Positions 1 through 41,114 of a DNA stretch of 41,114 nt are shown here, piece by piece (position 1 is the stretch's first letter; each line of letters starts with the position of its first letter). The stretch comes from a virus: positions 1 to 41,114 of the IMG/VR virus record IMGVR_UViG_3300022839_000033; one strand, given 5' to 3'. The translations under genes and the position numbers were made by a program. Under the pieces are notes generated by a model. It had not been told where the DNA came from and searched no databases. It saw only the letters and a program-made list of their open reading frames with translations.

Positions 1-223
1 CTTTCAAACTTTTCCTAATTGAATTGACTCGATCCTTTGCCGACAAAACGCACTCCTGCCAAATAATTGGGTCTTGGAGCGCGTCGTTCAAGTCGATCTC
101 AAGATCACTAAGCAGCGAGAAAGCATAGTCTCCGCTTGGGATCTTTTGAGTCTTAGGTTTGTCTCCTAGGATCGAGTCAATAACTCGCTTAACATCTTTA
201 GATTCTATTTTTTTAACGGTCAT
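1..223 (-). CDS. Small early protein, cut by window start
   Basis: The reading frame starts at ATG 223 and is still open at position 1. The intact homologue at 38214-38447 has 77 residues, so only the last few codons are missing here. No domain is recognised. The protein is acidic and probably helical (the stretch DLEIDLNDAL is typical). Its start codon shares one base with the stop of the gene at 223-432 (TAATG arrangement), so it is translationally coupled within the early operon. The RecE-like nuclease gene would follow directly, as it does in the right copy. Confidence 0.8.
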   Translation of the reverse strand, partial: MTVKKIESKDVKRVIDSILGDKPKTQKIPSGDYAFSLLSDLEIDLNDALQDPIIWQECVLSAKDRVNSIRKSLK

Positions 224-432
224 TAATAACCTTCCTTTCGTAAATCTTGAGTGATTTCATTGATTCTTTCGGTATATCTGTATGGCAATCCTTCCTCTTC
301 TTCCTCTTCTTCCTCTTCTTCTTCTAACTTTGCATTTTCAGAGCATAATTCTATAAATTCCTCAAAGGTTTTCGGCCATTCTTCTGGATGAGTTTCAAAC
401 CATCCTAATGTGTAATCCAGTCCGTCAATCAT
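223..432 (-). CDS. Acidic small protein with poly-Glu tract
   Basis: This 69-residue frame starts at the ATG that overlaps the stop of the 185-residue gene, preceded by an AGGT element. A start at 450 is also open. The protein begins MIDGLDYTLGW and carries a run of 11 Glu encoded by GAA/GAG repeats. The right-end homologue has only 8 residues there (4 Glu, Gln, 3 Glu), which fits replication slippage in a coding microsatellite. No family is recognised. High acidity could suit a DNA-mimic or a flexible linker, but that is only inference. Confidence 0.7.
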   Translation of the reverse strand: MIDGLDYTLGWFETHPEEWPKTFEEFIELCSENAKLEEEEEEEEEEEGLPYRYTERINEITQDLRKEGY

Positions 433-982
433 TGCGCACAGACCTGTCATATGACCATGCGATATTATTAAGAGCTTCTTTAAGACTATATTCGCATTCT
501 GTTTTCGCTAATAAATTATCGTATATTTTAATAGCCTCCCTCGAAGCCAAAAAAGCAGCGCACAATGCTGTGACCTCTCCCTTTTCGTCAATAAAGGCTT
601 TTCTTTTTATATTTCTATTTATCGCTGCTTTGCCGCTAGCATTGTCGTAATATCTAAAACCCGAATGAATATCGTCAAAACTTCCCAGCTTATAAAAAGG
701 CTCAGAAGTATACCCGATTAGGTGTCGACTTTCGTTCCGCATGTCACCCTTCCAGACTATAACGTGTACTAAACTGGACATCTTTTCGAAACTAAAACAA
801 TAATCTGGATATTTATTATTTAGCCAAGTTTCAATCCTTTTAGACACGGGTTTGCCCTCATTTAATTCGATGAATCCTGCAAGCATCTCATGCCGTTTAA
901 TAAGCTCCGAGTCCCTGTTAATTTCTGCTTGAATCTCAAGGACTACTGCAATTTTTAATTGTTTATTTATTGTTTCAATCAT
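425..982 (-). CDS. Conserved early protein of unknown function (185 aa)
   Basis: I do not recognise this family. The N-terminal half looks helical (MIETINKQLKIAVVLEIQAEIN), and the central part has alternating strands around VHVIVWKGDMR and FRYYDNASGK. The C-terminal 50 residues are helical again. The homologue at 38640-39197 differs at only a few positions, so the protein is under constraint. It lies in the early operon one base downstream of the 55-codon gene and overlaps the following acidic gene. An AGGTG ribosome site lies just upstream of ATG 982. Confidence 0.75.
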   Translation of the reverse strand: MIETINKQLKIAVVLEIQAEINRDSELIKRHEMLAGFIELNEGKPVSKRIETWLNNKYPDYCFSFEKMSSLVHVIVWKGDMRNESRHLIGYTSEPFYKLGSFDDIHSGFRYYDNASGKAAINRNIKRKAFIDEKGEVTALCAAFLASREAIKIYDNLLAKTECEYSLKEALNNIAWSYDRSVRND

Positions 983-983
983 C

Positions 984-1151
984 TTAATTCACCTCATCCA
1001 CAAAAAACTCGCTCATCTGTTCGTCAAATTCTTTCTCGTCTAGATGGTCAAAGTTTTCACGTATTTTTCCCCAAGCATCCTCAAAAGATTCTGATTCTCC
1101 ATAAAAATCTAAAATATTCCCAGCCCAATCTTTAACGATAAATTTTCTCAT
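984..1151 (-). CDS. 55-residue early protein with WAGN motif
   Basis: This short frame begins MRKFIVKDWAGNILDF and ends at TAA 984-986. Its ATG overlaps the TGA of the secreted-protein gene (ATGA). The layout (short strand, WAGN turn, strand, then SFEDAWGKIRE helix and acidic tail) resembles a small protein family common in phages and of unknown function. That resemblance is from memory of the motif, not a search. The same gene is intact in the right copy (39199-39366) with near-identical protein, which supports it being real. Confidence 0.8.
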   Translation of the reverse strand: MRKFIVKDWAGNILDFYGESESFEDAWGKIRENFDHLDEKEFDEQMSEFFVDEVN

Positions 1152-1417
1152 CTTATTTGCTCCAGCGCCTTTTTAATGCGCTTATTTCTATTTTCTATTT
1201 TTTTAATTTCTTTTTTGGTATTTTTTGCATCTGCGATACAAGTTTGAGCCGCTACGATCGCGCCAGTGCGGCCATGTGCCACGTCTTTAGCCTCGGTGTC
1301 ACAGTTATACTTGACAGCTTGACGGACGATTGCGACGAGAGCGGTAAACTCTTTGTCCGTCATTCGCCCCAAAGCATAAGTATTAAACGAGATTAAGGTT
1401 AATAGTAATAATCTCAT
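1148..1417 (-). CDS. Small secreted early protein
   Basis: The 89-residue product starts with a clear Sec signal peptide: MR, then a leucine-rich core, then SFNTYA, with likely cleavage after Ala-15. The mature part is about 74 residues, contains two cysteines that could form a disulfide in the periplasm, and has a Lys-rich coiled C-terminus. Its ATG overlaps the stop of the clamp-like gene. An exported protein in the early replication operon is unusual; superinfection exclusion or envelope modification is possible, but nothing in the sequence proves it. The right-end homologue keeps the signal peptide and both cysteines. Confidence 0.8.
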   Translation of the reverse strand: MRLLLLTLISFNTYALGRMTDKEFTALVAIVRQAVKYNCDTEAKDVAHGRTGAIVAAQTCIADAKNTKKEIKKIENRNKRIKKALEQIR

Positions 1418-1959
1418 TTTGATGCTCTCATTGGCATTAATACGCCGTTATTACCGTTAAAACTAACTGACATAGGGCTTAACTTACTAGTGGTGTCGAT
1501 CTCCAAAATGCATTGGTCTGATAGTTTGTTATCGCGCATCGACTCACATAATTGAGCCAATAAAAAGGGATTAAAACTTATTTTATGGTTTACATTTGTC
1601 GGCATTACTCTAGACGTGTCGGGGTAATCACCGACAATGCGCTCAAGTATGACTCCTGTAAGACCAACACATAACTCAATTTTGCCATTGTCATGCATTT
1701 TGATAACCCATACACATTTTTTATTACCAGCGTAGAGTAGCTTAAGCATTTTTACAGAATCTGGCTGTATTATATACGGATGATTAAGTTTTAGTCCCTC
1801 GGGGATGTCGAGATAAACTATAGCTAGAGCATGACCGTCTGTAGCACGCATTCTGAGCTTGTCGTTAACAATATCAAGGCATACTCCAGTTAATGAGTAT
1901 CTCATTTGATCTTTTGAAGCCTGTTTTTGCATATTTATTATTGATGTTATTAATTGCAT
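1414..1959 (-). CDS. Shortened beta sliding-clamp-like protein
   Basis: At 181 residues this is half the length of a bacterial DnaN (about 366). Its order of motifs matches DnaN domain II followed by the end of domain III. The frame has MRYSLTGVCLDI (cf. VRYYLNGMLFE), ATDGHALA at 39-46 (cf. ATDGHRLA), GDYPDTSRVMP at 110-120 (cf. GRFPDYRRVLP) and LMPMR at 174-178 (cf. VMPMR at the DnaN C-terminus). Domain I and the first half of domain III appear absent. Residues lining the DnaN peptide-binding pocket (Thr, Gly, His and Leu of TDGHxL; Pro; Arg-Val; Met of MPMR) are kept. It could form a non-standard ring or act as a binding decoy; both are inference. Confidence 0.8.
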   Translation of the reverse strand: MQLITSIINMQKQASKDQMRYSLTGVCLDIVNDKLRMRATDGHALAIVYLDIPEGLKLNHPYIIQPDSVKMLKLLYAGNKKCVWVIKMHDNGKIELCVGLTGVILERIVGDYPDTSRVMPTNVNHKISFNPFLLAQLCESMRDNKLSDQCILEIDTTSKLSPMSVSFNGNNGVLMPMRASK

Positions 1960-2012
1960 TATATTTCCTTATTGCCTGATTATAACGTAATCATTAGCAT
2001 TGCTTAATTAAG
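1960..2012 (-). promoter_or_regulatory. Promoter/operator module before clamp-like gene
   Basis: Read leftward, it holds a conserved block close to TTAATTAAGCAATGCTAA, a TATAAT -10 box (1979-1984 on the + strand as ATTATA), a dyad TGATTA-5 nt-TAATCA (1977-1993) covering that box, the block CAGGCAATAAGGA and the ribosome site TAAGGAAA, ending at the ATG. The same module recurs at 2981-3034, 40178-40232 and 40885-40937. A dyad on the -10 box suggests a repressor site. The -35 box is poor. Confidence 0.65.
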
Positions 2013-2023
2013 TGGTATTTTTG

Positions 2024-2056
2024 TTTATTTATTGTTTATTTATTATTTATTTATTG
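2024..2056. repeat. Three tandem 11-bp AT repeats
   Basis: TTTATTTATTG, TTTATTTATTA and TTTATTTATTG follow without gaps. The tract lies between the 87-codon gene and the clamp promoter and is absent from the right copy, so it marks the variable segment. Confidence 0.9.
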
Positions 2057-2062
2057 TTTTGC

Positions 2063-2326
2063 TTATTTTAATTGCTCTCCATACACAATTGAACTCAATT
2101 GTGAATCGGTGAGGCTGTCTAAAACATGCGGCTTTTTGTCTAAATCATAAAAGTCGGACTCTGGAATATCCAAAAAATTATTGCGCATCATCCAATTGGT
2201 TAAATTTTGAACCATCTCATTACGATCTGAGCCGCAATCATCCCATGTTGTCAGGATATCTGCGGCAAGCCTCTGGGCGTCCTTACGGGATTGGAAAAAT
2301 TTGTGGTGTATTGTTTTTTTGTTCAT
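2063..2326 (-). CDS. Strain-variable small early protein (87 aa)
   Basis: The product begins MNKKTIHHKFFQSRKDAQRL and is otherwise helical and acidic. No family is recognised. The ATG overlaps the TGA of the upstream gene (ATGA), so it is coupled. The right-end copy of this region lacks this gene completely and places the clamp promoter directly after the preceding gene. It is therefore an accessory cargo gene present in one haplotype and not the other. Confidence 0.7.
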   Translation of the reverse strand: MNKKTIHHKFFQSRKDAQRLAADILTTWDDCGSDRNEMVQNLTNWMMRNNFLDIPESDFYDLDKKPHVLDSLTDSQLSSIVYGEQLK

Positions 2327-2679
2327 TTGATTACTCCCAGTAGTTCGTCGTCTACGCCGAGGTTTTCCAAGGCCAGTGCAAAAGGCTGCACGCCTTGGTC
2401 ACAACGAAGCATGAGCTTGTAGGCTTCCTTTATGAAACTTTGTAATGCTGCGGGATTTTGCACGCCTTCCAACGCATTCACACACTCGACGATGCGAGCG
2501 GCGTTTGCTTCGGCATGGTAAGGTACGTCGTTATGCTCGCGCGCCCAATAGGAGTCGCTCAGTTGGAAGATATTAACGGAGCGGTCTCCTTCTTTTGCTT
2601 GGATGCAGTTATTTTCATGTGTCGCTACCGTGTTGCGGTTATATGTCCAAGGCGTTGGAGTATGTTTTGTTCTGCTCAT
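2323..2679 (-). CDS. Conserved phage protein, HTPxPW...ANAARIVECVNA type
   Basis: The 118-residue product starts MSRTKHTPTPWTYNRN and has EANAARIVECVNALEG in its centre. This combination belongs to a widespread group of small phage proteins of unknown function (recalled from motif, not searched). A strong AGAGGTG ribosome site lies 7 bases before ATG 2679, within the end of the previous gene. The homologue at 40221-40619 has extra residues (DEGVQPDGSNMC region) before the C-terminus and a different tail, so the C-terminal 25 residues are the variable part. Confidence 0.8.
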   Translation of the reverse strand: MSRTKHTPTPWTYNRNTVATHENNCIQAKEGDRSVNIFQLSDSYWAREHNDVPYHAEANAARIVECVNALEGVQNPAALQSFIKEAYKLMLRCDQGVQPFALALENLGVDDELLGVIK

Positions 2680-2680
2680 C

Positions 2681-2980
2681 TTAATTCACCTCTATGAATT
2701 CGAGACTATAAGTTTCGTCGTCGTCTATTTCGCCGCCGGTAACTGTGTACCATGCGACCAAAAAGTCGCCATTATCGGCGTCAATAGTAGATGCAGCCCA
2801 TCTATCGGGATTAACTGCATCGCTTTTGTAAGTGGGCTCACAATGGCGCGATAACAGTCGATTAATCGTAGCGGCTCCGTAGATTGCAATGGCGGCGTCT
2901 TTATACAAGCGTCTAAAGCTTGACGGTTGATCATTAGATGCCTGTATTTGGGATGTTATTTGGGATGTTTTTGATTGCAT
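2681..2980 (-). CDS. First early-operon protein (99 aa), unknown function
   Basis: This is the first gene after the main leftward promoter. It starts MQSKTSQITSQIQASND, an N-terminus shared in pattern with the clamp-like protein (MQLITSIINMQKQASKD). After that the proteins are unrelated. The body has IAIYGAATINRLLSRH and a C-terminal acidic stretch with WYTVTGGEIDDDETYSLEF. The right-end homologue lacks 12 residues (QPSSFRRLYKDA) after the leader-like part. No function is recognised. The ribosome site TAAGGAGA is 6 bases upstream of the ATG. Confidence 0.75.
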   Translation of the reverse strand: MQSKTSQITSQIQASNDQPSSFRRLYKDAAIAIYGAATINRLLSRHCEPTYKSDAVNPDRWAASTIDADNGDFLVAWYTVTGGEIDDDETYSLEFIEVN

Positions 2981-3034
2981 TTGTATCTCCTTATTGCCTG
3001 ATCATTATAAGATCATTAGCATTGCTTACTTAAG
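2981..3034 (-). promoter_or_regulatory. Main leftward early promoter/operator module
   Basis: Read leftward: TTAAGTAAGCAATGCTAA, then a dyad TGATC-7 nt-GATCA (2999-3015) enclosing a perfect TATAAT (+ strand ATTATA at 3004-3009), then CAGGCAATAAGGAGA and the ATG at 2980. It is the same module as at 1960-2012. It lies upstream of the whole early operon and is likely its main, repressible promoter. Confidence 0.7.
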
Positions 3035-3199
3035 GCGTAATATGATGGGCATTTAACTATATGTCAATATAAAAATAATAAAAAAATTGTATGGTCATTT
3101 ATGGTAATAAAAATAACGTATTGGAATCAAAATTTAATCATTCAGCAAGCAATTTGAAGCATTTTGAATCATATCGAATAATAATAATTGTATATATAT

Positions 3200-3222
3200 A
3201 GAGAGGATCATCTGCGCTCTCT
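3200..3222. repeat. Inverted repeat at end of shared region
   Basis: AGAGAG at 3200-3205 and CTCTCT at 3217-3222 can pair around an 11-base loop. The right copy of the terminal redundancy stops inside this element, at GATCATC. Confidence 0.5.
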
Positions 3223-6585: not shown

Positions 6586-7275
6586 ATGGAAAATGAACTT
6601 GAAATTGAAATTGAGAAAAAAAAGAGTCCTATCGAAATCTGGAGAGACTCACTCACTGATGAACAGAAAGAAGCACACAAAATTAAGCTCTCCCATGCTC
6701 GAACAGCAGCAGCCAAGAAGGTAAGAGAGACAAAAATCGAGGTAGAAAAGAAGGCTCAAGCCTTGCTGCCTGTTATGTTTGCTGAGCAGCTCAAGAGTCA
6801 GATAGACGGACGGGACTTCTCACCTAACCAAGAAACTATACAACGTCTGCGGTTCCTGATGGATCGTGGAATGACAATCAAGGAGATGAGAGGTAAGTAT
6901 TTCTCGGACATCGAACAGGCTATATGGGACAAGATCCTCAAGTTTCTGTTTCGTGACCAAGTGGCCAACACTGAAGAACTTGCCTTGTCGATCCTGAACT
7001 CTCAACAAAAACTATTGAAGGACATGGAACGACAGTTGAAGTCTGTTAAACGCGAGGTGCGCGGGTACAAGAAGAGAAAAGACTCCATCCCAATGTTAGT
7101 GCTAGGCATGGAGCTTAAGCTGTCTGAGAAGATCTACGCTCTTAAGGTTAACGTTTCTGAGGCTATGCTGAACTTGGGTGTGGTTGGCGAGAAGCAGAAG
7201 AATGCCTCAATCAACATCCACATGAGCGTTCCTAGACCAGAGAAGATAGTTAAAGACATTATAGAAGTTGTCTAA
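6586..7275 (+). CDS. terS: Putative terminase small subunit
   Basis: The 229-residue product is called by position, directly upstream of and overlapping (TAATG) the large terminase gene, and by character. It has a charged N-terminus rich in Glu and Lys, a helical middle with MDRGMTIKEMRGKYF that may form a DNA-binding helix-turn-helix-like element, and long coiled helices (residues 140-180) that could drive ring formation. The C-terminus ends in EKIVKDIIEVV. Small terminases recognise the packaging site and load the large subunit. Direct family recognition is weak, so the call rests mainly on context. Confidence 0.65.
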   Translation: MENELEIEIEKKKSPIEIWRDSLTDEQKEAHKIKLSHARTAAAKKVRETKIEVEKKAQALLPVMFAEQLKSQIDGRDFSPNQETIQRLRFLMDRGMTIKEMRGKYFSDIEQAIWDKILKFLFRDQVANTEELALSILNSQQKLLKDMERQLKSVKREVRGYKKRKDSIPMLVLGMELKLSEKIYALKVNVSEAMLNLGVVGEKQKNASINIHMSVPRPEKIVKDIIEVV

Positions 7276-8609
7276 TGGATATCGTCAACCAGTATATTCC
7301 AAACGACTGGCAATCAGAATTCCACGGCGATGATTGGCGATACACTTGCCTTGTCGGCGGAAAAGGTTCAGGCAAGACTTTTGCCGCTGTTCAAGAACTT
7401 GTTACCTGTGCATTAGAGAGCCCAGGAACGACTTACGTCATAGGTAGAAAGACGCTACCATCACTTAGGGACTCATCTTGGAAAGCCTTTATTGGCATTG
7501 TCGATAAGAACTTAATCAAAGAAATAACTAAAACTCCTATGCGTGTTGAACTTATTAACGGGTCTGAGTTCCTTGGTCGTCCTCTTGATGAGATGAAGAA
7601 ATTCGATTCAATGGAAATTGCAGGATGGTTTGTCGACGAGGCTGACGAAATTGAAGAGGATATGTGGAAGACACTCAAAGACCGTACTCGGCAGATGATA
7701 TATGTTAATGGGAAAAAAATAGTCCCTAGATACAGAGGGATCATCGGTCTTAACCCTACCGATGAGGACCATTGGATTCCTCAATTCTTTTTGTCTCCTG
7801 ACTGCCCTAAGGATCATAAAATCTACTACTCAACCCCAATGGACAACATGGAGAACCTGCCGCCGGGATACGTGGACCAATTAAAAGGCCAATACTCTCC
7901 CGACCAGCTCCAACGATTGTTATACGGACAATTCGGCAAGGTCCACAAAGGTCGACCGGTATTCCCTCAGTTTAACCGTGGAAATTATGTCTGGTCAGTA
8001 CAATATGATCCAGAGTCTACGATGTTTAGAACTTGGGACTTTGGCTACAACACTCCAGTTTGCGTATTCTTCCAGTTCATCAACGGACAAATGCGAGTCT
8101 TCGAGGAGGTCGTTGGTAAAAGAGAATACATTGATGACTTCGCTAAAAGAGTCTTAGAACATCAAAAAAAGATGTTTCCTGATGTCAGAATATTGAAGGA
8201 TTTCTGTGACCCTCACGGAGCCGATGAAAAGGACACGGGAGTAACGTCTGTTAGAGCGTTAAACGAGCTAGGAATTTATCCACAGTACCGCCGTCAGACT
8301 ATCGCTGAGGGCATTAAAGCTGTAAAGTGGTTGTTAGACACTTTAAATAGTGCAGGAGAACCTAATTTTTATATAAATGGGAGATGTAAGCGGTTGGTCG
8401 AGGGGTTTAGAGGCGGTTATCACCGTATGGATGGGGTAGAGCACCCAGAAAAAGATGGTTACTACGATCATGTATTCGATGCACTTAGATATGGTGCAAC
8501 TTTTATGGTCTCTAGGTTTATGTTCAACAAAGCCTCAGCTAACCACAACCCAGCAACTTTCATACACCCAAGGACCGGACGAAGAATAGAGTTACAGGGG
8601 GATAAATGA
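7275..8609 (+). CDS. terL: Terminase large subunit (packaging ATPase/nuclease)
   Basis: The 444-residue protein has a Walker A motif GGKGSGKT at 28-35, a Walker B AGWFVDEADE with Asp121-Glu122, and a C-terminal RNase H-like nuclease. The nuclease acidic residues are visible in RTWDFGYN (Asp255), LKDFCDPHG (Asp309/312) and YYDHVFDALRYG near residue 395. This is the layout of the Terminase_3/PBSX-like group. It powers DNA into the prohead and cuts the concatemer. Length is usual for the family. The start overlaps the TerS stop and its stop overlaps the portal start (ATGA). Confidence 0.95.
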   Translation: MDIVNQYIPNDWQSEFHGDDWRYTCLVGGKGSGKTFAAVQELVTCALESPGTTYVIGRKTLPSLRDSSWKAFIGIVDKNLIKEITKTPMRVELINGSEFLGRPLDEMKKFDSMEIAGWFVDEADEIEEDMWKTLKDRTRQMIYVNGKKIVPRYRGIIGLNPTDEDHWIPQFFLSPDCPKDHKIYYSTPMDNMENLPPGYVDQLKGQYSPDQLQRLLYGQFGKVHKGRPVFPQFNRGNYVWSVQYDPESTMFRTWDFGYNTPVCVFFQFINGQMRVFEEVVGKREYIDDFAKRVLEHQKKMFPDVRILKDFCDPHGADEKDTGVTSVRALNELGIYPQYRRQTIAEGIKAVKWLLDTLNSAGEPNFYINGRCKRLVEGFRGGYHRMDGVEHPEKDGYYDHVFDALRYGATFMVSRFMFNKASANHNPATFIHPRTGRRIELQGDK

Positions 8610-11765: not shown

Positions 11766-13040
11766 ATGACTATAAACTTATCATCTAATTTTTCTGGTGG
11801 AAGCATCAATGCGCACATCGCATCTAAACTTTTGCTTCTTGCACAGAAATCACTTGTATTTCATCAACTATCTGAAAAGGCCGTAATGCCAGCCGGTGAA
11901 GGTAAGGTTTTCCAATACAACCAGTATGGACGCCTAAACTTGCCTTTGAACTCTTTGAGTGAAGGTATCGACCCCAGCTCTAGTGACATGTCTTTGACTA
12001 CTGTTTCTGCTACTGCCGATCAGTGGGGAGCTTTCGTTGAATTGTCTGACGTAGCTGTTTTGACTATCAAGCACCCACTTTTGCAAGTAGCTATGAACTT
12101 GTTGTCTTACCAAGCTGCCGAATTGGTAGAGCGTGAGAACATTAACCTTTTGTTGACTGGAACTTCCGTTATTTTCGGTGGTACAGCAACTAAGCGTTCT
12201 GGTCTTTCTTCTTTATCAACTGACGTATTCTTGGACGCTGTTGCTCAAAAGGCAGTTAAAAACCTAAGAACTGACGGAGCACATGAGGACGAGTCTGGTT
12301 ACTTTGTTGGCGTTATCGACCCTTCAATGGAACAGGACATCTCTGCTTCTGGTGGAACTCTTGTGACTGCTGCTTCTTATTCTTCAATCAAAACTCTTTA
12401 TAAGGGTGAGATTGGCGAATGGCGTGGCGTTCGTTGGATGCGTTCTAACTTCATCCCTACACTAACTGGTGTAGCAGCTGCTAGTTATACGTCCCCTGAT
12501 TCTCCTGCTGGAACTTTTGCTGGTGCCAACTATCGCATCACAACTGCTTATTACAACAAGAGAACTGGATTCCTCGAAAAACTCACTGCGAACACAGCCG
12601 TAGCGGTTTCTGCTGATGATTCATTGGCTGCAACTATGCCTAGTGATACAAACTTTGTTTACAAGTTATTCGTTGGTATTGCTGCTGGTGGCGCTGATGA
12701 TGTTATGTATCAAGCCGTAGAGTCTACTCTAGCTAATGGCTTCATCCCTGCATCAACTGCTGCTGTTTTCTTGGCACCTCCTGTGTCTGGAGCATCAATC
12801 GCTGGATCTGATATTCCTGCTTCTACTAAGATCGTTCACTTTGGTTGGGTTTTCGGAAAAGAAGCTTACTGCAACGTCGATCTTCAGAACCTTCAGGTTT
12901 TCGTATCTGGTAAGGACGCAACTACTGACAACCCTCTAGTTCTTCGTAGAACTGTTGGCTGGAAGTGTATGTTCAAACCTGTCATTCAGAACAATTCTTT
13001 CATGGAACGTATTGAAGTATTGTCTGCTTTTGACGCTTAA
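11766..13040 (+). CDS. Major capsid protein, N4-gp56 type
   Basis: The 424-residue protein matches the pattern of the N4-gp56 capsid family: an N-terminal arm, then GEGKVFQYNQYGRL, DQWGAFVELSDVAVLTIKHPLLQVAMNLL-type central helix region (residues 86-120) and an LLLTGTSVIFGG turn at 128-139. Residues about 235-350 look like an inserted beta-rich domain, with YRITTAYYNKRTGFL and FVYKLFVGIAAGG as in Ig/fibronectin-like modules, before the fold resumes at TKIVHFGWVFGKEAY. A strong GGAGG site lies upstream. Codon use is regular and T-rich at third positions, fitting high expression. Confidence 0.9.
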   Translation: MTINLSSNFSGGSINAHIASKLLLLAQKSLVFHQLSEKAVMPAGEGKVFQYNQYGRLNLPLNSLSEGIDPSSSDMSLTTVSATADQWGAFVELSDVAVLTIKHPLLQVAMNLLSYQAAELVERENINLLLTGTSVIFGGTATKRSGLSSLSTDVFLDAVAQKAVKNLRTDGAHEDESGYFVGVIDPSMEQDISASGGTLVTAASYSSIKTLYKGEIGEWRGVRWMRSNFIPTLTGVAAASYTSPDSPAGTFAGANYRITTAYYNKRTGFLEKLTANTAVAVSADDSLAATMPSDTNFVYKLFVGIAAGGADDVMYQAVESTLANGFIPASTAAVFLAPPVSGASIAGSDIPASTKIVHFGWVFGKEAYCNVDLQNLQVFVSGKDATTDNPLVLRRTVGWKCMFKPVIQNNSFMERIEVLSAFDA

Positions 13041-34917: not shown

Positions 34918-35186
34918 TATTTTTCCTCCACGGGTTGCATCGGGAAGAAAATATTATCCAAACTTTTTTCGCATTGTTTTAAAAGATCTTTCATTTTGTC
35001 TTTTGTTTCCCAAGCTAATTTCGCGTTGTAAACTGAACGGGCAAATAGAATAGTGCTAAATTCATTACCGTCTTTAATTTTAAATTTTTGGTGGTCATAA
35101 TGACAATCAATGCCAGTAATTGAACTAAAATCATCCCAAGTTAAAGAAACAACAAGTGTATCAATCCCTCTGCTAATTATTTTCAT
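34917..35186 (-). CDS. Small early protein (89 aa), unknown
   Basis: The N-terminus MKIISRGIDTLVVSLTWDDF and a C-terminal Lys-rich helix (AWETKDKMKDLLKQCEKSLDNIF) suggest an alpha/beta fold. No family is recognised. It begins in an ATGA overlap with the second paralogue upstream and ends at a TAATG junction. Confidence 0.65.
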   Translation of the reverse strand: MKIISRGIDTLVVSLTWDDFSSITGIDCHYDHQKFKIKDGNEFSTILFARSVYNAKLAWETKDKMKDLLKQCEKSLDNIFFPMQPVEEK

Positions 35187-35521
35187 ATCTCATACTCTCC
35201 CTTTAGTTCTACGCACGTGATCCTATCGGTACGAATGGTTCTGTCTGCACTATGTTTTGAATTATGAGACACACGATAATTGTTAGGAAAGATATTAACC
35301 CAAACAATAAATTCAACTTTTGTCTTCGGTCGCTCGACAAGCGTTAGAATTGAATGAGTGTGATCGTCTTCAAACCTACCATCTAAGTAAAATGCAAGAG
35401 AACAGCCATACTTCTCAATGTATAAATAGTTTGAAAATCCCTTTTCGATTAGCGTAAAAACCTTATCTCCGAAAAACGCACATTTAACCTTGTCACCTGC
35501 TCTATATAAAAAATTATTCAT
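35183..35521 (-). CDS. Paralogue B of tandem pair, GDKV-type protein
   Basis: The 112-residue protein is a diverged duplicate of the one at 35518-35859; both start MNNFLYRAGDKVKCAFFGDKVF. It shows YRxGDKV and FYLDGRF...THSILTL, a pattern common in phage proteins with an SH3-like barrel, and a C-terminal part EFIVWVNIFPNNYRVSHNSK...RITCVELKGE, a second small domain. The first barrel strands and last domain are conserved between the pair, the middle is not. Function unknown. Confidence 0.75.
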   Translation of the reverse strand: MNNFLYRAGDKVKCAFFGDKVFTLIEKGFSNYLYIEKYGCSLAFYLDGRFEDDHTHSILTLVERPKTKVEFIVWVNIFPNNYRVSHNSKHSADRTIRTDRITCVELKGEYEI

Positions 35522-35859
35522 ATCTCACATTCTCCCTTTAATTCTACGCACGCGATCCTATCGGACAGACATTTTTGGTCGGCAATTTCTTTCGAGGCGT
35601 AATATGTATTATCGTCCTTGTTAGGGTATAAATTCATCCAAACAATAAATTCAACTTTTGTCTTCTGTCGATCGACAAGCGTTAGAGTCGAATGCGTGTG
35701 GCTTTTCATGTGCCTACCTTCCGCACAAAATGAAATAAAACCGCCCTCATGCTCAATGTATAAATAACTTCCTTCACTATAAGCATATAGCTTAAAAACC
35801 TTATCTCCGAAAAACGCACACTTAACCTTGTCGCCTGCTCTATATAAAAAATTATTCAT
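35518..35859 (-). CDS. Paralogue A of tandem pair, GDKV-type protein
   Basis: This is 113 residues long with the same first 22 residues as paralogue B. The middle differs (KLYAYSEGSYLYIEHEGG), then it reads RHMKSHTHSTLTLVDRQKTKVEFIVWMNLYPN, and the C-terminus ISRIACVEL-like is kept (SDRIACVELKGECEI). AGAGGG precedes the ATG. The two copies adjoin with an ATGA overlap, so they arose by tandem duplication. Selection seems to have kept both ends while the ligand face diverged. Confidence 0.75.
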   Translation of the reverse strand: MNNFLYRAGDKVKCAFFGDKVFKLYAYSEGSYLYIEHEGGFISFCAEGRHMKSHTHSTLTLVDRQKTKVEFIVWMNLYPNKDDNTYYASKEIADQKCLSDRIACVELKGECEI

Positions 35860-35956
35860 CTCTATTCCCTCTTCTCCCTACCCACTCACCTATCAAGGCG
35901 GCTATAAATCCCATTAAAATCATACAAAACCCTATCCAAAAAATGTCGCTTGTCAT
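35852..35956 (-). CDS. 34-residue single-pass membrane protein
   Basis: A short frame begins MTSDIFWIGFCMILMGFIAA and ends GEWVGRRGNRDE. It has one membrane segment with a basic, cytoplasmic end. It fills an otherwise empty 98-base gap in a packed operon, starts one base after the stop of the helix-turn-helix gene, and overlaps the next ATG by 8 bases. No ribosome site is seen, so coupling would be needed. Confidence 0.5.
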   Translation of the reverse strand: MTSDIFWIGFCMILMGFIAALIGEWVGRRGNRDE

Positions 35957-37172: not shown

Positions 37173-37378
37173 TATAAAATATCCTCTAGTTTAATTTCTT
37201 TGTGACATAGTGATTTTAATTGGTTCCCGATTTCTAACTTTTGAGCGGTAAGTTTGGCTATTTCATTCGTGATAGTTTGAAGCGTCCTAAGCTTATTGTT
37301 TATACAATCCTTAAGTTTGTATAATTCGTCACTATTGATTCTTTCTAATTGTTCATTGATTAGGTCGTTTGTATTCAT
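37172..37378 (-). CDS. Coiled-coil protein after RecE-like gene (68 aa)
   Basis: I start at ATG 37378, preceded by AAGGAG at 8 bases and overlapping the RecE-like stop (ATGA); the upstream extension to 37477 is an antisense-like shadow. The product MNTNDLINEQLERINSDELYKLKDCINNK... is one long helix with heptads, like prefoldin-style coils. Its function is unknown; it may be an accessory of the exonuclease. Confidence 0.7.
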   Translation of the reverse strand: MNTNDLINEQLERINSDELYKLKDCINNKLRTLQTITNEIAKLTAQKLEIGNQLKSLCHKEIKLEDIL

Positions 37379-38217
37379 AATATTTCTCCTTTTGAATCCC
37401 ATGACTCTTCTTTGAGCTGGGAAATTTGCCAAGAACTGGGGTAAATTGGCTCGACTCCGCAAGTATAGAACGGCCAATCATTTTTGGCCTCACACTCCGC
37501 AAGTCTCTCAAGCCATTGTTTGTATTTTCTTTTGCCGATCTCGTAAAAAGGGTTTGCATCATAAATGCCTATCGCATGCGGTGCCTTCTCCTCTAAAGCT
37601 ATCCAAACAAAGTTATCAGCTTCAAAGATATCCTGATACCACGCCGCTTTAGCATCGTAATGTAAATTAGATATGACTCGGCCGAATTCCTGCGAGCTGG
37701 CTCCTTTGGGTCTGCCGACTTTTTTGACATCCAAAACGACTTTGCCCATTGTTTTTGAGTTAACAACTATATCAGCCTTGCCCTTGCATGGCCTACCATT
37801 GAAATCTCTCACTAAAGGGACCTCAAATTCTCCAGACGAAAAGACTTCTGCTAGGGAGAGTTTCCCTCTATTAGCTTTAATTTCGTCGGCAAGTGACAAT
37901 AGAATGCCGGTTAAGCTCTCCATCTCTTGCGGTTTAAGGATGACTGCACCCTCTCCCTGATCGGCTCTCCATTTGTCCATGTATTCTCTATGTGCCTTTA
38001 GCCTATTGTTTCTCTCCTCTCCTAGGATTGTGTCGGGTTCCACCACATACAAACTTTTAAACTTCATAGGCTCCAAAATTGCTAAGTGGCAAATTGTGCC
38101 AAAATTAACCGCATCCGATTCTAGCGGAGCGTTTATCTGGTAATGTTTCGGCGAGTCTGCCATAAGCGCCAGTCTACTTACATTTAAAGCAGGATCTTCT
38201 CTATATTCATCTCTCAT
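37375..38217 (-). CDS. RecE-like exonuclease (PD-(D/E)XK)
   Basis: The 280-residue protein shows the RecB/RecE-type nuclease order: SRLALMADSPKHYQ at the start, FGTICHLAILEP with His-44, GKADIVV with Asp-149, VLDVKKV with Asp-163 and Lys-165, and YDAKAAWYQDIF (187-198) as the QxxxY-like helix. This is the exonuclease VIII C-terminal (DUF3799) type. It would resect double-stranded DNA ends for recombination. No annealase gene is recognised beside it; the SSB-like protein or an unknown small gene may fill that role. Confidence 0.85.
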   Translation of the reverse strand: MRDEYREDPALNVSRLALMADSPKHYQINAPLESDAVNFGTICHLAILEPMKFKSLYVVEPDTILGEERNNRLKAHREYMDKWRADQGEGAVILKPQEMESLTGILLSLADEIKANRGKLSLAEVFSSGEFEVPLVRDFNGRPCKGKADIVVNSKTMGKVVLDVKKVGRPKGASSQEFGRVISNLHYDAKAAWYQDIFEADNFVWIALEEKAPHAIGIYDANPFYEIGKRKYKQWLERLAECEAKNDWPFYTCGVEPIYPSSWQISQLKEESWDSKGEIL

Positions 38218-38447
38218 ATTTCACCTTTCAAACTTTTCCTAATTGAATTGACTCGATCCTTTGCCGACAAAACGCACTCCTGCCAAATAATTGGGTCTTG
38301 GAGCGCGTCGTTCAAGTCGATCTCAAGATCACTAAGCAGCGAGAAAACATAGTCTCCACTTGGGATCTTTTGAGTCTTAGGTTTGTCTCCTAGGAACGAG
38401 TCAATAATTCGCTGAACATCTTTAGATTCTATTTTTTTAACGGTCAT
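38214..38447 (-). CDS. Small early protein (77 aa), complete copy
   Basis: This is the intact form of the gene cut at position 1. It starts MTVKKIESKDVQRIIDSFLGD and ends RKSLKGEI. It is helical and acidic, with no recognised domain. It overlaps the RecE-like start by ATGA, so it is likely produced with that enzyme. Confidence 0.75.
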   Translation of the reverse strand: MTVKKIESKDVQRIIDSFLGDKPKTQKIPSGDYVFSLLSDLEIDLNDALQDPIIWQECVLSAKDRVNSIRKSLKGEI

Positions 38448-38647
38448 TAATAACCTTCCTTTCGTAAATCTTGAGTGATTTCATTGATTCTTTCGGTATA
38501 TCTGTATGGCAATCCTTCCTCTTCTTGCTCTTCTTCCTCTAATTTTGCATTTTCAGAGCATAATTCTATAAATTCCTCAAAGGTTTTGGGCCATTCTTCT
38601 AGATGAGTTTCAAGCCATCCTAATGTGTAATCCAATCCGTCAATCAT
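38447..38647 (-). CDS. Acidic protein, short poly-Glu form
   Basis: Counterpart of 223-432. It starts at the ATG overlapping the upstream stop, with AAGGT upstream; longer in-frame starts at 38665 and TTG 38686 exist. Here the acidic run is 4 Glu, Gln, 3 Glu, against 11 Glu in the left copy, showing tract length varies between haplotypes. Confidence 0.7.
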   Translation of the reverse strand: MIDGLDYTLGWLETHLEEWPKTFEEFIELCSENAKLEEEEQEEEGLPYRYTERINEITQDLRKEGY

Positions 38648-39197
38648 TGCGCACTGACCTTTCATAGGACCATGCGATATTATCAAGAGCTTCTTTAAGA
38701 ATAAATTCGCATTCTGTTTTAGCTAATAAACTATCGTATATTTTAATAGCCTCCCTCGAAGCCAAAAAAGCAGCGCATAATGCTGTGACATCTCCCTTTT
38801 CGTCAATAAAGGCTTTTCTTTTTATATTTCTATTTATCGCTGCTTTGCCGCTAGCATTGTCGTAATATCTAAAACCCGAATGGATATCGTCAAAACTTCC
38901 CAGCTTATAAAAAGGCTCGTCATTATACGCGATGAGGTGGCGGCTTTCATTCCGCATGTCACCCTTCCAGACTATAACGTGTACTAGACTGGACATTTTC
39001 TCGAACCTAAAACAATAATCTGGATATTTATTATTTAGCCAAGTTTCAATCCTTTTAGATACAGGTTTGCCCTCATTTAATTCGATGAATCCTGCAACCA
39101 TCTCATGCCGTTTAATAAGCTCCGATTCCCTGTTAATTTCTGCTTGAATCTCAAGGACTACCGCAATTTTTAATTGTTTATTTATTGTTTTAATCAT
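38640..39197 (-). CDS. Unknown early protein (185 aa), right copy
   Basis: Same length as the left-end copy at 425-982. Differences are conservative and scattered (for example LIAYNDEPF against LIGYTSEPF), which argues for purifying selection on a real protein. AGGTG upstream of the ATG is kept. Confidence 0.75.
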   Translation of the reverse strand: MIKTINKQLKIAVVLEIQAEINRESELIKRHEMVAGFIELNEGKPVSKRIETWLNNKYPDYCFRFEKMSSLVHVIVWKGDMRNESRHLIAYNDEPFYKLGSFDDIHSGFRYYDNASGKAAINRNIKRKAFIDEKGDVTALCAAFLASREAIKIYDSLLAKTECEFILKEALDNIAWSYERSVRND

Positions 39198-39198
39198 C

Positions 39199-39366
39199 TT
39201 AATTCACCTCATCCACAAAAAACTCGCTCATTTGGTCGTCAAATTCTTTCTCGTCTAGATGGTCAAAGTTTTCACGTATTTTGCCCCAAGCATCCTCAAA
39301 AGATTCTGATTCTCCATAAAAATCTAAAACATTACCGGCCCAATCCTTAACAATAAATTTTCTCAT
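39199..39366 (-). CDS. 55-residue WAGN protein, right copy
   Basis: Same frame and length as 984-1151, with start overlapping the upstream TGA and very few residue changes despite several base changes. Conservation across haplotypes supports this otherwise easily missed gene. Confidence 0.8.
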   Translation of the reverse strand: MRKFIVKDWAGNVLDFYGESESFEDAWGKIRENFDHLDEKEFDDQMSEFFVDEVN

Positions 39367-39632
39367 CTTATTTGCTCCAGCGCCTTTTTAATGCGCTTAT
39401 TTCTATTTTGTGTTTTTTTAATTTCTTTTTTGGTATTTTTTGCGGCTGCGATACAAGTTTGAGCCGCTACGATCGCGCCAGTGCGGCCATGTGCCACGTC
39501 TCTAGCCTCGGTGTCACAGTCATACTTGACAGCTTGACGGACTATTGCGACGAGAGCAGTAAACTCTTTGTCCGTCATTCGCCCCAAAGCATACGTATTA
39601 AACGAGATTAAGCTTAATAGTAATAATCTCAT
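39363..39632 (-). CDS. Small secreted early protein, right copy
   Basis: Counterpart of 1148-1417. The signal peptide and both mature cysteines are unchanged; substitutions fall in the coiled tail and around the second cysteine. ATGA overlaps on both sides are retained. Confidence 0.8.
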   Translation of the reverse strand: MRLLLLSLISFNTYALGRMTDKEFTALVAIVRQAVKYDCDTEARDVAHGRTGAIVAAQTCIAAAKNTKKEIKKTQNRNKRIKKALEQIR

Positions 39633-40177
39633 TTTGATGCTCTCATTGGCATTAATACGCCGTTATTACCGTTAAAAATAACTGACATAGGACTTAATTT
39701 GCTAGTGGTGTCGATCTCCAAAGTGCATTGGTCTGATAGTTTGTTATCGCGCATCGACTCACATAATTGAGCCAGCAAAAAGGGATTAAAACTTATTTTA
39801 TGGTTTAAATTTGTCGGCATTACTCTAGACGTGTCGGGGTAATCACCGACAATGCGCTCAAGTATGACTCCTGTAAGTCCAGCAACGCATAGCTCTATTT
39901 TCCCATTGTCATGCATTTTGATAACCCATGCACATTTTTTATTGCTAGCGTAAACGAGTTTAAGCATTTTCACCGAATCCGGCTGTATTATATACGGATG
40001 ATTAAGTGCCAATCCCTCGGGTATGTCGAGATAAACTACAGCTAGAGCATGACCGTCTGTAGCGCGCATTCTGAGCTTGTCGTTAACAATATCAAGGCAC
40101 ACTCCAGTTAATGAGTACCTCATTTGATCTTTTGAAGCCTGTTTTTGCATGTTTATTATTGATGTTATTAATTGCAT
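39629..40177 (-). CDS. Shortened beta-clamp-like protein, right copy
   Basis: At 182 residues this has one extra Ala (IELCVAGLTG against IELCVGLTG in the left copy). ATDGHALA, DYPDTSRVMP and LMPMR are identical, so the DnaN-type pocket residues are conserved while surface positions vary. The absence of domain I is therefore a stable property and not a sequencing artefact. Confidence 0.8.
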   Translation of the reverse strand: MQLITSIINMQKQASKDQMRYSLTGVCLDIVNDKLRMRATDGHALAVVYLDIPEGLALNHPYIIQPDSVKMLKLVYASNKKCAWVIKMHDNGKIELCVAGLTGVILERIVGDYPDTSRVMPTNLNHKISFNPFLLAQLCESMRDNKLSDQCTLEIDTTSKLSPMSVIFNGNNGVLMPMRASK

Positions 40178-40232
40178 TGTATCTCCTTATTATTGCCTGA
40201 TTATAACGTAATCATTGGCATTACTTACTTAA
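40178..40232 (-). promoter_or_regulatory. Promoter/operator module, right clamp copy
   Basis: TTAAGTAAGTAATGCCAA-like block, dyad TGATTA-5 nt-TAATCA, TATAAT (+ strand ATTATA 40200-40205), CAGGCAATAATAAGGAGA. It overlaps the last codons of the upstream gene. It keeps the dyad exactly as in 1960-2012 although flanking bases differ. Confidence 0.65.
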
Positions 40233-40619
40233 GTCGTATAGTACGGCGTCTACGCCGAGGTTTTCCAAGGCCATTGCAAAGCCTAAAGTACACATATTTG
40301 ATCCGTCAGGCTGCACGCCTTCATCTTGGTCACAACGAAGCATGAGCTTGTAGGCTTCCCGAATGAAGCTTTGTAATGCTGCGGGATTTTGCACGCCTTC
40401 TAGAGAATTAACACACTCGACGATGCGAGCGGCGTTTGCCTCGGCATGGTAAGGGACATTGTTATGCTCGCGCGCCCAATAGGAATCACGTAGGTAAAAG
40501 ATATTAACAGAGCGGTCGCCTTCTTTGGCCTGAATGCAGTTATCTGCATGTGTCGCTGCGGTGTTGCGGTTAAATGTCCAAGGTCCTGCAGTATGTGCAG
40601 TATGTTTTGTTCTGCTCAT
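40221..40619 (-). CDS. HTPxPW-type conserved protein, right copy
   Basis: Start at ATG 40619 (MSRTKHTAHTAGPWTFN), matching the left copy; an upstream in-frame ATG at 40634 lies in the previous gene. It has insertions (AHTA near the start, DEGVQPDGSNMCTLG before the C-terminus) and a different end (LGVDAVLYDLSK). Here its 3' end runs into the clamp promoter because the 87-codon gene is missing. Confidence 0.8.
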   Translation of the reverse strand: MSRTKHTAHTAGPWTFNRNTAATHADNCIQAKEGDRSVNIFYLRDSYWAREHNNVPYHAEANAARIVECVNSLEGVQNPAALQSFIREAYKLMLRCDQDEGVQPDGSNMCTLGFAMALENLGVDAVLYDLSK

Positions 40620-40620
40620 C

Positions 40621-40884
40621 TTAATTAACCTCAATAAATTCGAGATTGTAAGTATCGTCGTCGTCTATGTCGCCGCCGGTAACTGTGTACCATGCTGTGA
40701 GCGTATCGCCATTAACGTCAATAGTAGACGCCGCCCAATTGTCGGGATTATTAGCGTCGCTTTTGTACGTGGGCTCACAATGACGCAATAACAGTCGATT
40801 AATCGTAGCGGCTCCGTAGATTGCAATGGCCTCGTCTTTTGATGCCTGTATTTGTGATGTTATTGTTTTTGTTATTAATTGCAT
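40621..40884 (-). CDS. First early-operon protein, right copy (87 aa)
   Basis: It starts MQLITKTITSQIQASKDEA, closer to the clamp-like N-terminus than the left copy is, and then joins IAIYGAATINRLLLRH without the 12-residue insert. The C-terminal acidic end is kept. The ribosome site TAAGGAGA is preserved. Confidence 0.75.
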   Translation of the reverse strand: MQLITKTITSQIQASKDEAIAIYGAATINRLLLRHCEPTYKSDANNPDNWAASTIDVNGDTLTAWYTVTGGDIDDDDTYNLEFIEVN

Positions 40885-40937
40885 TGTATCTCCTTATTGC
40901 CTGATCATTATCAGATCATTAGCATTGCTTACTTAAG
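40885..40937 (-). promoter_or_regulatory. Leftward promoter/operator module, right copy
   Basis: Same order as 2981-3034: TTAAGTAAGCAATGCTAA, dyad TGATC...GATCA, CAGGCAATAAGGAGA. The -10 box here is GATAAT instead of TATAAT. The downstream AT-rich region 40938-41114 matches 3035-3212 and has no gene. Confidence 0.65.
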
Positions 40938-41114
40938 TGGTAATATGATGGATAATTAAATATATGTCAATATAAAATAATAAAAAAAGTGTATGGTCAT
41001 TTATATTAACAAAAATAACGTATTAGGATCAAAATTTAATCATTCAGCAAGCAATTTGATTCATTTTGAATCATATCGAATAATAATAATTGTATATATA
41101 TAGAGAGGATCATC

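Follow-up and report, generated by a model that had tools for sequence, protein, structure and literature searches.

A half-length DnaN-type clamp carried by hundreds of phages, possibly a new kind of ring and possibly a decoy

Textbook sliding clamps are three-domain dimers or two-domain trimers, assembled head to tail and working through a single face. The bacterial beta clamp (DnaN) has six beta-alpha-beta3 units per chain, while PCNA and the gp45 protein of phage T4, which share the unit fold, build head-to-tail trimers from chains of two complete domains. The viral contig IMGVR_UViG_3300022839_000033 of IMG/VR (41,114 nucleotides, analysed at full length and called the window) encodes on its minus strand, at 1414..1959, a 181-residue relative of DnaN that has three units instead of six. 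It shares with DnaN domain II, the IIIb unit and the pocket that receives clamp-binding motifs, but lacks domain I, the IIIa unit and the known dimer interface. A widespread 1.5-domain clamp without the known ring-closing surface departs from the textbook rule and raises a testable question, whether a sliding clamp can have two equivalent faces or can do without a closed ring. That the window protein serves its phage as a functional sliding clamp of this compact type has, in our judgement, close to an even chance; it may belong to a new kind of ring, probably made of four copies if it is a ring, or it may be a decoy for host replication proteins.

The window protein is homologous to DnaN by sequence and by fold. 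It matches PF02767 (DNA_pol3_beta_2, the central domain of DnaN) with an expect value (E) of 6.7e-9 and 36.5 bits (cut-off 27), TIGR00663 with 5.7e-13 and 48.6 bits, which is below the full-length cut-off of 137.65, and the bacterial beta clamps of the PDB with 1.8e-7. Among phage families, PHROG 3007 matches it over nearly its full length (E 8.8e-14), and PHROG 947, labelled 'processivity factor', with 4.6e-14. A first reading of the letters alone (the sequence-only reading) had described a 181-residue protein with ATDGHALA, GDYPDTSRVMP and a C-terminal LMPMR in DnaN order; the open reading frame was confirmed, its strand being the minus one (1959->1414). The domain II part (residues 1-114, 1618..1959, minus strand), delimited by the Pfam match to residues 6-114 and by the secondary structure of the model, comprises units IIa and IIb and carries the pocket segments MRYSLTG, ATDGHAL and GDYPD. 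The IIIb-type third unit (residues 122-181, 1417..1596, minus strand), assigned by hhalign against DnaN IIIb, consists of a helix (131-143), three strands and the LMPMR tail, without IIIa. AlphaFold 2 (AF2) models of the window protein (predicted local distance difference test, pLDDT, 83.8; predicted template modelling score, pTM, 0.80) and of another family member, L024 (pLDDT 90.3, pTM 0.82), both show three helix-plus-strand units in DnaN order and match DnaN structures with E values of 7e-9 and 4e-12, respectively.

Searching viral contigs with the window protein alone returned no relatives; these were retrieved only with alignments of diverse members, among them BcepC6B gp31 and the protein of Vibrio phage 13VV501A, and at least 541 were then confirmed in one scan. 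A pattern scan of the genome_contigs set gave no match at all, and no weight is placed on it. Hundreds of phage genomes encode the half-length protein, among them Dhillonvirus (TheodorHerzl), EP23, SO-1, Skate-like Salmonella and E. coli phages (Bas77-79, Bas81), Vibrio and Listonella phages, Bcep781, BcepC6B, Acinetobacter phage 4316 and Pseudomonas TC7. Since TheodorHerzl/Bas14, Bas77-79 and Bas81 are coliphages of one public laboratory collection, genetics and biochemistry are feasible. At 75% identity, 155 loci fell into 68 clusters (178-307 residues, median 205); one cluster, L131, looks full length and was excluded from the 65-row family alignment. PHROG 3007 includes the EP23 and SO-1 members, BcepC6B gp31, Bcep781 gp15, phiHSIC ORF2 and TheodorHerzl bas14_0007. 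The window protein belongs to this family as a divergent member: it has the IIa-IIb-IIIb composition, the length (roughly 170-240 residues) and the MPMR-like tail of the type, and its length and unit composition are common to other members.

The gene is already annotated in public genomes, under names as different as 'DNA polymerase III beta subunit', 'fragment' and, following the PHROG 3007 label, 'RusA-like Holliday junction resolvase'. Judged by the sequence matches, the last name is a misannotation that has spread through many RefSeq phage genomes (e.g. NC_005887.1, NC_016566.1): we rejected a RusA identity, as a Pfam scan of the window protein with E values up to 1 returned only DNA_pol3_beta_2, and the identification as a clamp corrects the label in phage databases. 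A 209-residue member, gp20 of Burkholderia phage AH2, was published as 'DNA polymerase III beta subunit', and the accessible part of that report passes over its length (PMC3483164). In the searched literature, which lies largely outside subscription journals, we found no description of the 1.5-domain architecture, of this unit composition or of its assembly.

According to the sequence-only reading the protein lacks domain I and part of domain III; both the alignment and the profile comparison agree. When 72 half clamps were aligned without constraints to 16 full-length ones, the occupancy was 5% for domain I, 88% for domain II, 10% for IIIa and 91% for IIIb, and hhalign gave the third unit a probability of 97.3 as DnaN IIIb (E 2.7e-11) versus 0.1 as IIIa. 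As read from alignments and models, the protomer is made of three beta-alpha-beta3 units (IIa, IIb and IIIb), domain I and IIIa being deleted. None of the 46 carrier records surveyed, the window included, had an N-terminal PF00712 match above the cut-off, and the chain has neither the three complete domains of DnaN nor the two complete domains (four units) of PCNA and gp45. Among PDB sequences only bacterial beta clamps matched, 55 in all, each with at least 366 residues and thus with no solved half-length member among them; the best matches in BFVD include several short phage clamps. Both AF2 models are devoid of a proper strand before the third helix, which would be expected if this strand needs a partner that is absent from a monomer. 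In a FastTree phylogeny of the II and IIIb columns the full-length clamps all fell to the same side of a split with a local support of 0.585; the tree is compatible with a single origin of the half clamps, although too weak to claim one. Comparison of the hydrophobic moments of the edge helices in half and full-length clamps seemed to show a rotation of helix 3 by 37 degrees and none of the central helix 2. In half clamps, helix 1 is about one turn shorter and helix 3 apparently longer than in full-length clamps, and as these length differences confound the comparison, the shift was set aside as evidence for new interfaces.

The 18 residues forming the partner pocket of the E. coli clamp are listed in a review (PMC11139829). 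In the 72 half clamps these positions are 75% identical to E. coli, versus 18% at the other positions of II and IIIb; the corresponding values in full-length controls are 86% and 31%, and the window protein shares 15 of the 18. The pocket for DnaN partners is retained, as had been supposed from the motifs. In contrast, all seven dimer-interface residues named in the same review (I78, R103, F106, I272, L273, E298, and E304) fall in domain I or IIIa, the parts absent from half clamps, which consequently keep the pocket and have lost the known ring-closing surface, the head-to-tail interface between domains I and III. Because the pocket is conserved toward the bacterial sequence, host clamp-binding proteins, including the host clamp loader and Pol III alpha, would be its likeliest ligands.

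The loss of this interface bears on the idea of a mixed ring, in which the half clamp would insert into or cap the ring of host DnaN, or pair with a second phage paralogue. In Listonella phage phiHSIC two family members are encoded, one with a degenerate pocket; but the residues by which DnaN is known to dimerise all lie in the deleted parts, a second distinct member was found in only one of the 46 records, and a domain I protein above the Pfam cut-off in none, and we hold this arrangement to be very unlikely. A second gene that supplies the missing clamp fragment was likewise rejected on the domain I result. The degenerate phiHSIC paralogue, ORF43 (L172:31723-32265; RKHLNG, SNGH and APVK in its pocket), suggests a two-component clamp or a non-binding regulator.

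A second copy of the clamp gene, encoding 182 residues with 96% protein identity, lies at 39629..40177 on the minus strand. It sits within an overlap of about 2.9 kb between the contig ends (94%, then 81% identical by blastn self-comparison), the left end, 1..3212, being a diverged copy of 38225-41114. On the simplest reading these are two haplotypes of one locus rather than a true duplication, in a phage genome of about 38.2 kb that is circular or terminally redundant, each of the contig ends having been assembled from a different strain; the earlier statement that the gene is present in both haplotypes is a fair one. Of the changes between the copies, 24 are synonymous and 9 non-synonymous (ratio of non-synonymous to synonymous rates, dN/dS, 0.086), and no pocket residue is altered. 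The low dN/dS and the unchanged pocket indicate that the gene is functional and under purifying selection. The proposition that the protein is a decaying, functionless fragment of a captured dnaN gene might draw on the deposited name of Bcep781 gp15, 'DNA Pol III b subunit fragment', but given this dN/dS, the single length class over 68 clusters and the nearly invariant pocket residues it is almost certainly wrong for the window, and as a general explanation decay is refuted by the selection and conservation results.

How three units per chain may form a ring can be approached from the order of units in DnaN. As the pocket residues of IIa and IIIb meet at the boundary of domains II and III, and IIIa bears the dimer interface, the order along the ring should be Ib-Ia-IIb-IIa-IIIb-IIIa; removal of domain I and IIIa leaves IIb-IIa-IIIb, a contiguous arc equal to a quarter of 12 units. 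Four protomers would close a 12-unit, six-domain ring around the phage DNA, a domain number that PCNA and gp45 rings share. Successive units of a clamp face opposite ways, and with an odd count per chain neighbouring protomers would have to be flipped. IIIb would pair with the IIIb of the next copy, in place of IIIa, and IIb would meet IIb, and this head-to-head and tail-to-tail packing would result in D2 symmetry with pockets on both faces of the ring. The host clamp loader would load the ring through the pocket, and the ring would tether host clamp-binding proteins (Pol III alpha where the phage has no polymerase) or, elsewhere, the phage family A polymerase. We tentatively favour this homotetrameric D2 clamp, with two of its six domains completed by IIIb-IIIb pairing between chains and with pockets facing both sides, at somewhat less than an even chance; it is the counting of units, from published residue positions, that favours a tetramer. 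If true, the ring would differ from the head-to-tail clamps of bacteria, eukaryotes and T4, in which one face of the ring is unlike the other. The closest parallel to such an assembly is a herpesvirus protein, BMRF1 of Epstein-Barr virus (cf. UL44 of human cytomegalovirus and PF-8 of Kaposi's sarcoma-associated herpesvirus); to our knowledge these three are PCNA-like proteins without a DnaN-type pocket. BMRF1 assembles into a ring of four copies through head-to-head and tail-to-tail contacts (PMC11322364), and six domains are described as typical of ring clamps (PMC9690074).

Across 65 members of the family the inner helices carry a net positive charge (+1.6, +1.6 and +0.2) and the remainder of the protein a negative one (-2.6), and lysine or arginine is common at helix-3 positions (63% and 55%). 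This pattern would fit the encirclement of DNA, albeit it is less marked in the window protein. Positive helices would equally serve an open, non-ring processivity factor, similar to UL42 and UL44 of herpesviruses, that, as a monomer or a C-shaped dimer, sits on DNA and needs no loader to tether a polymerase. UL42 and UL44 are not known to have a pocket conserved for canonical bacterial clamp-binding motifs. Monomeric and C-shaped dimeric viral clamps have precedents (PMC11322364; PMC9690074), and no clamp loader gene was found in any of the 46 carriers. An open factor is nonetheless improbable in our estimation: the protomers are not strongly basic (net charge -0.3 on average, +4 in the window protein), the pocket is conserved for the canonical bacterial motifs, and a host loader is available.

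The 46 carriers also have no Pol III alpha gene, while a family A polymerase is encoded by 25 and is absent from the other 21, including the window. The observation of the sequence-only reading that the contig has no visible phage polymerase was correct for these two types, which are the ones that the polymerase survey covers; a search with PF03175 (family B polymerase) gave no match in the carriers and none in the control genomes either. The hijacking of host replication, proposed on the basis of that observation, fails as the sole general explanation, since over half of the larger sampled contigs carry a phage family A polymerase. A more specific form of it is a serious rival to the ring, although we consider it unlikely: the half clamp would be a pocket decoy that acts as a monomer or a small oligomer, without encircling DNA, and that captures host proteins with clamp-binding motifs (repair polymerases, MutL, Hda, RecBCD and the clamp loader are candidate prey) to the advantage of the phage in host replication or defence. 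No other surface comes near the pocket in conservation, and the dimer interface is lost; many carriers (among them the window, Bas79 and phiHSIC) have no detected family A or Pol III alpha polymerase; and the clamp gene is away from replication genes in Bcep781, TheodorHerzl and Bas79. C-terminal clamp-binding motifs are not enriched in the neighbouring phage proteins (1 seen versus 1.5 expected, with a strict pattern that may be too narrow), which also agrees with host prey. A decoy, however, would need neither the positive charge of the DNA-lining type that the inner helices keep, nor the IIb unit and the exact quarter-ring composition that are maintained over 68 sampled clusters, and in some phages, Acinetobacter phage 4316 and BcepC6B, the clamp gene adjoins the family A polymerase gene.

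Several observations count against the tetrameric ring or against a role of the clamp with phage polymerases. The AF2 model of the window protein is less confident in the third unit (pLDDT about 52-86 beginning at residue 121). The protein has no first strand of unit IIa, its helices have charges of +1, +2 and 0, and several lysines of the family are missing. The clamp and polymerase genes are usually apart (within 4 kb in 4 of 25 carriers), and family A polymerases near clamp genes have no strict clamp-binding motif, by a pattern that may be too narrow, and few loose matches; the use of the pocket by phage family A polymerases is thus hypothetical. Finally, the MPMR tail is lost in BcepC6B gp31 (L005:8067-8582), which has IAGCRL instead. 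Two BcepC6B-like relatives end in VVMGWQI, and subsite II of the pocket may be altered in the BcepC6B lineage.

In TheodorHerzl, Bas79 and Bcep781 (L170:5007-5525, L171:16603-17139 and L180:3998-4579, respectively) the half-clamp gene is located in or beside the head and structural gene cluster, on the opposite strand. The clamp gene of the window shares its minus-strand early cluster with a gene for a 280-residue Exonuclease VIII-like PDDEXK nuclease (37375..38217, minus strand; PHROG 412, E 1.8e-39; PF12684, E 5.4e-16). The leader and about the first 50 nucleotides of the clamp gene recur with about 78-82% identity at 1910-2017, 2927-3034, 40128-40238 and 40835-40942, upstream of neighbouring genes and extending into them; the candidate readings are a 5' regulatory module that these genes have in common and a repeated start region. 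A small minus-strand gene is tandemly duplicated (35175-35525 and 35512-35863; 76% identical), its products of 112 and 113 residues having no family match. The window also encodes an N4-gp56-type major capsid protein (11766-13040) and a terminase (7275-8609), whose nearest annotated relatives are those of uncultured Manatee Spring phages, at about 29-32% identity.
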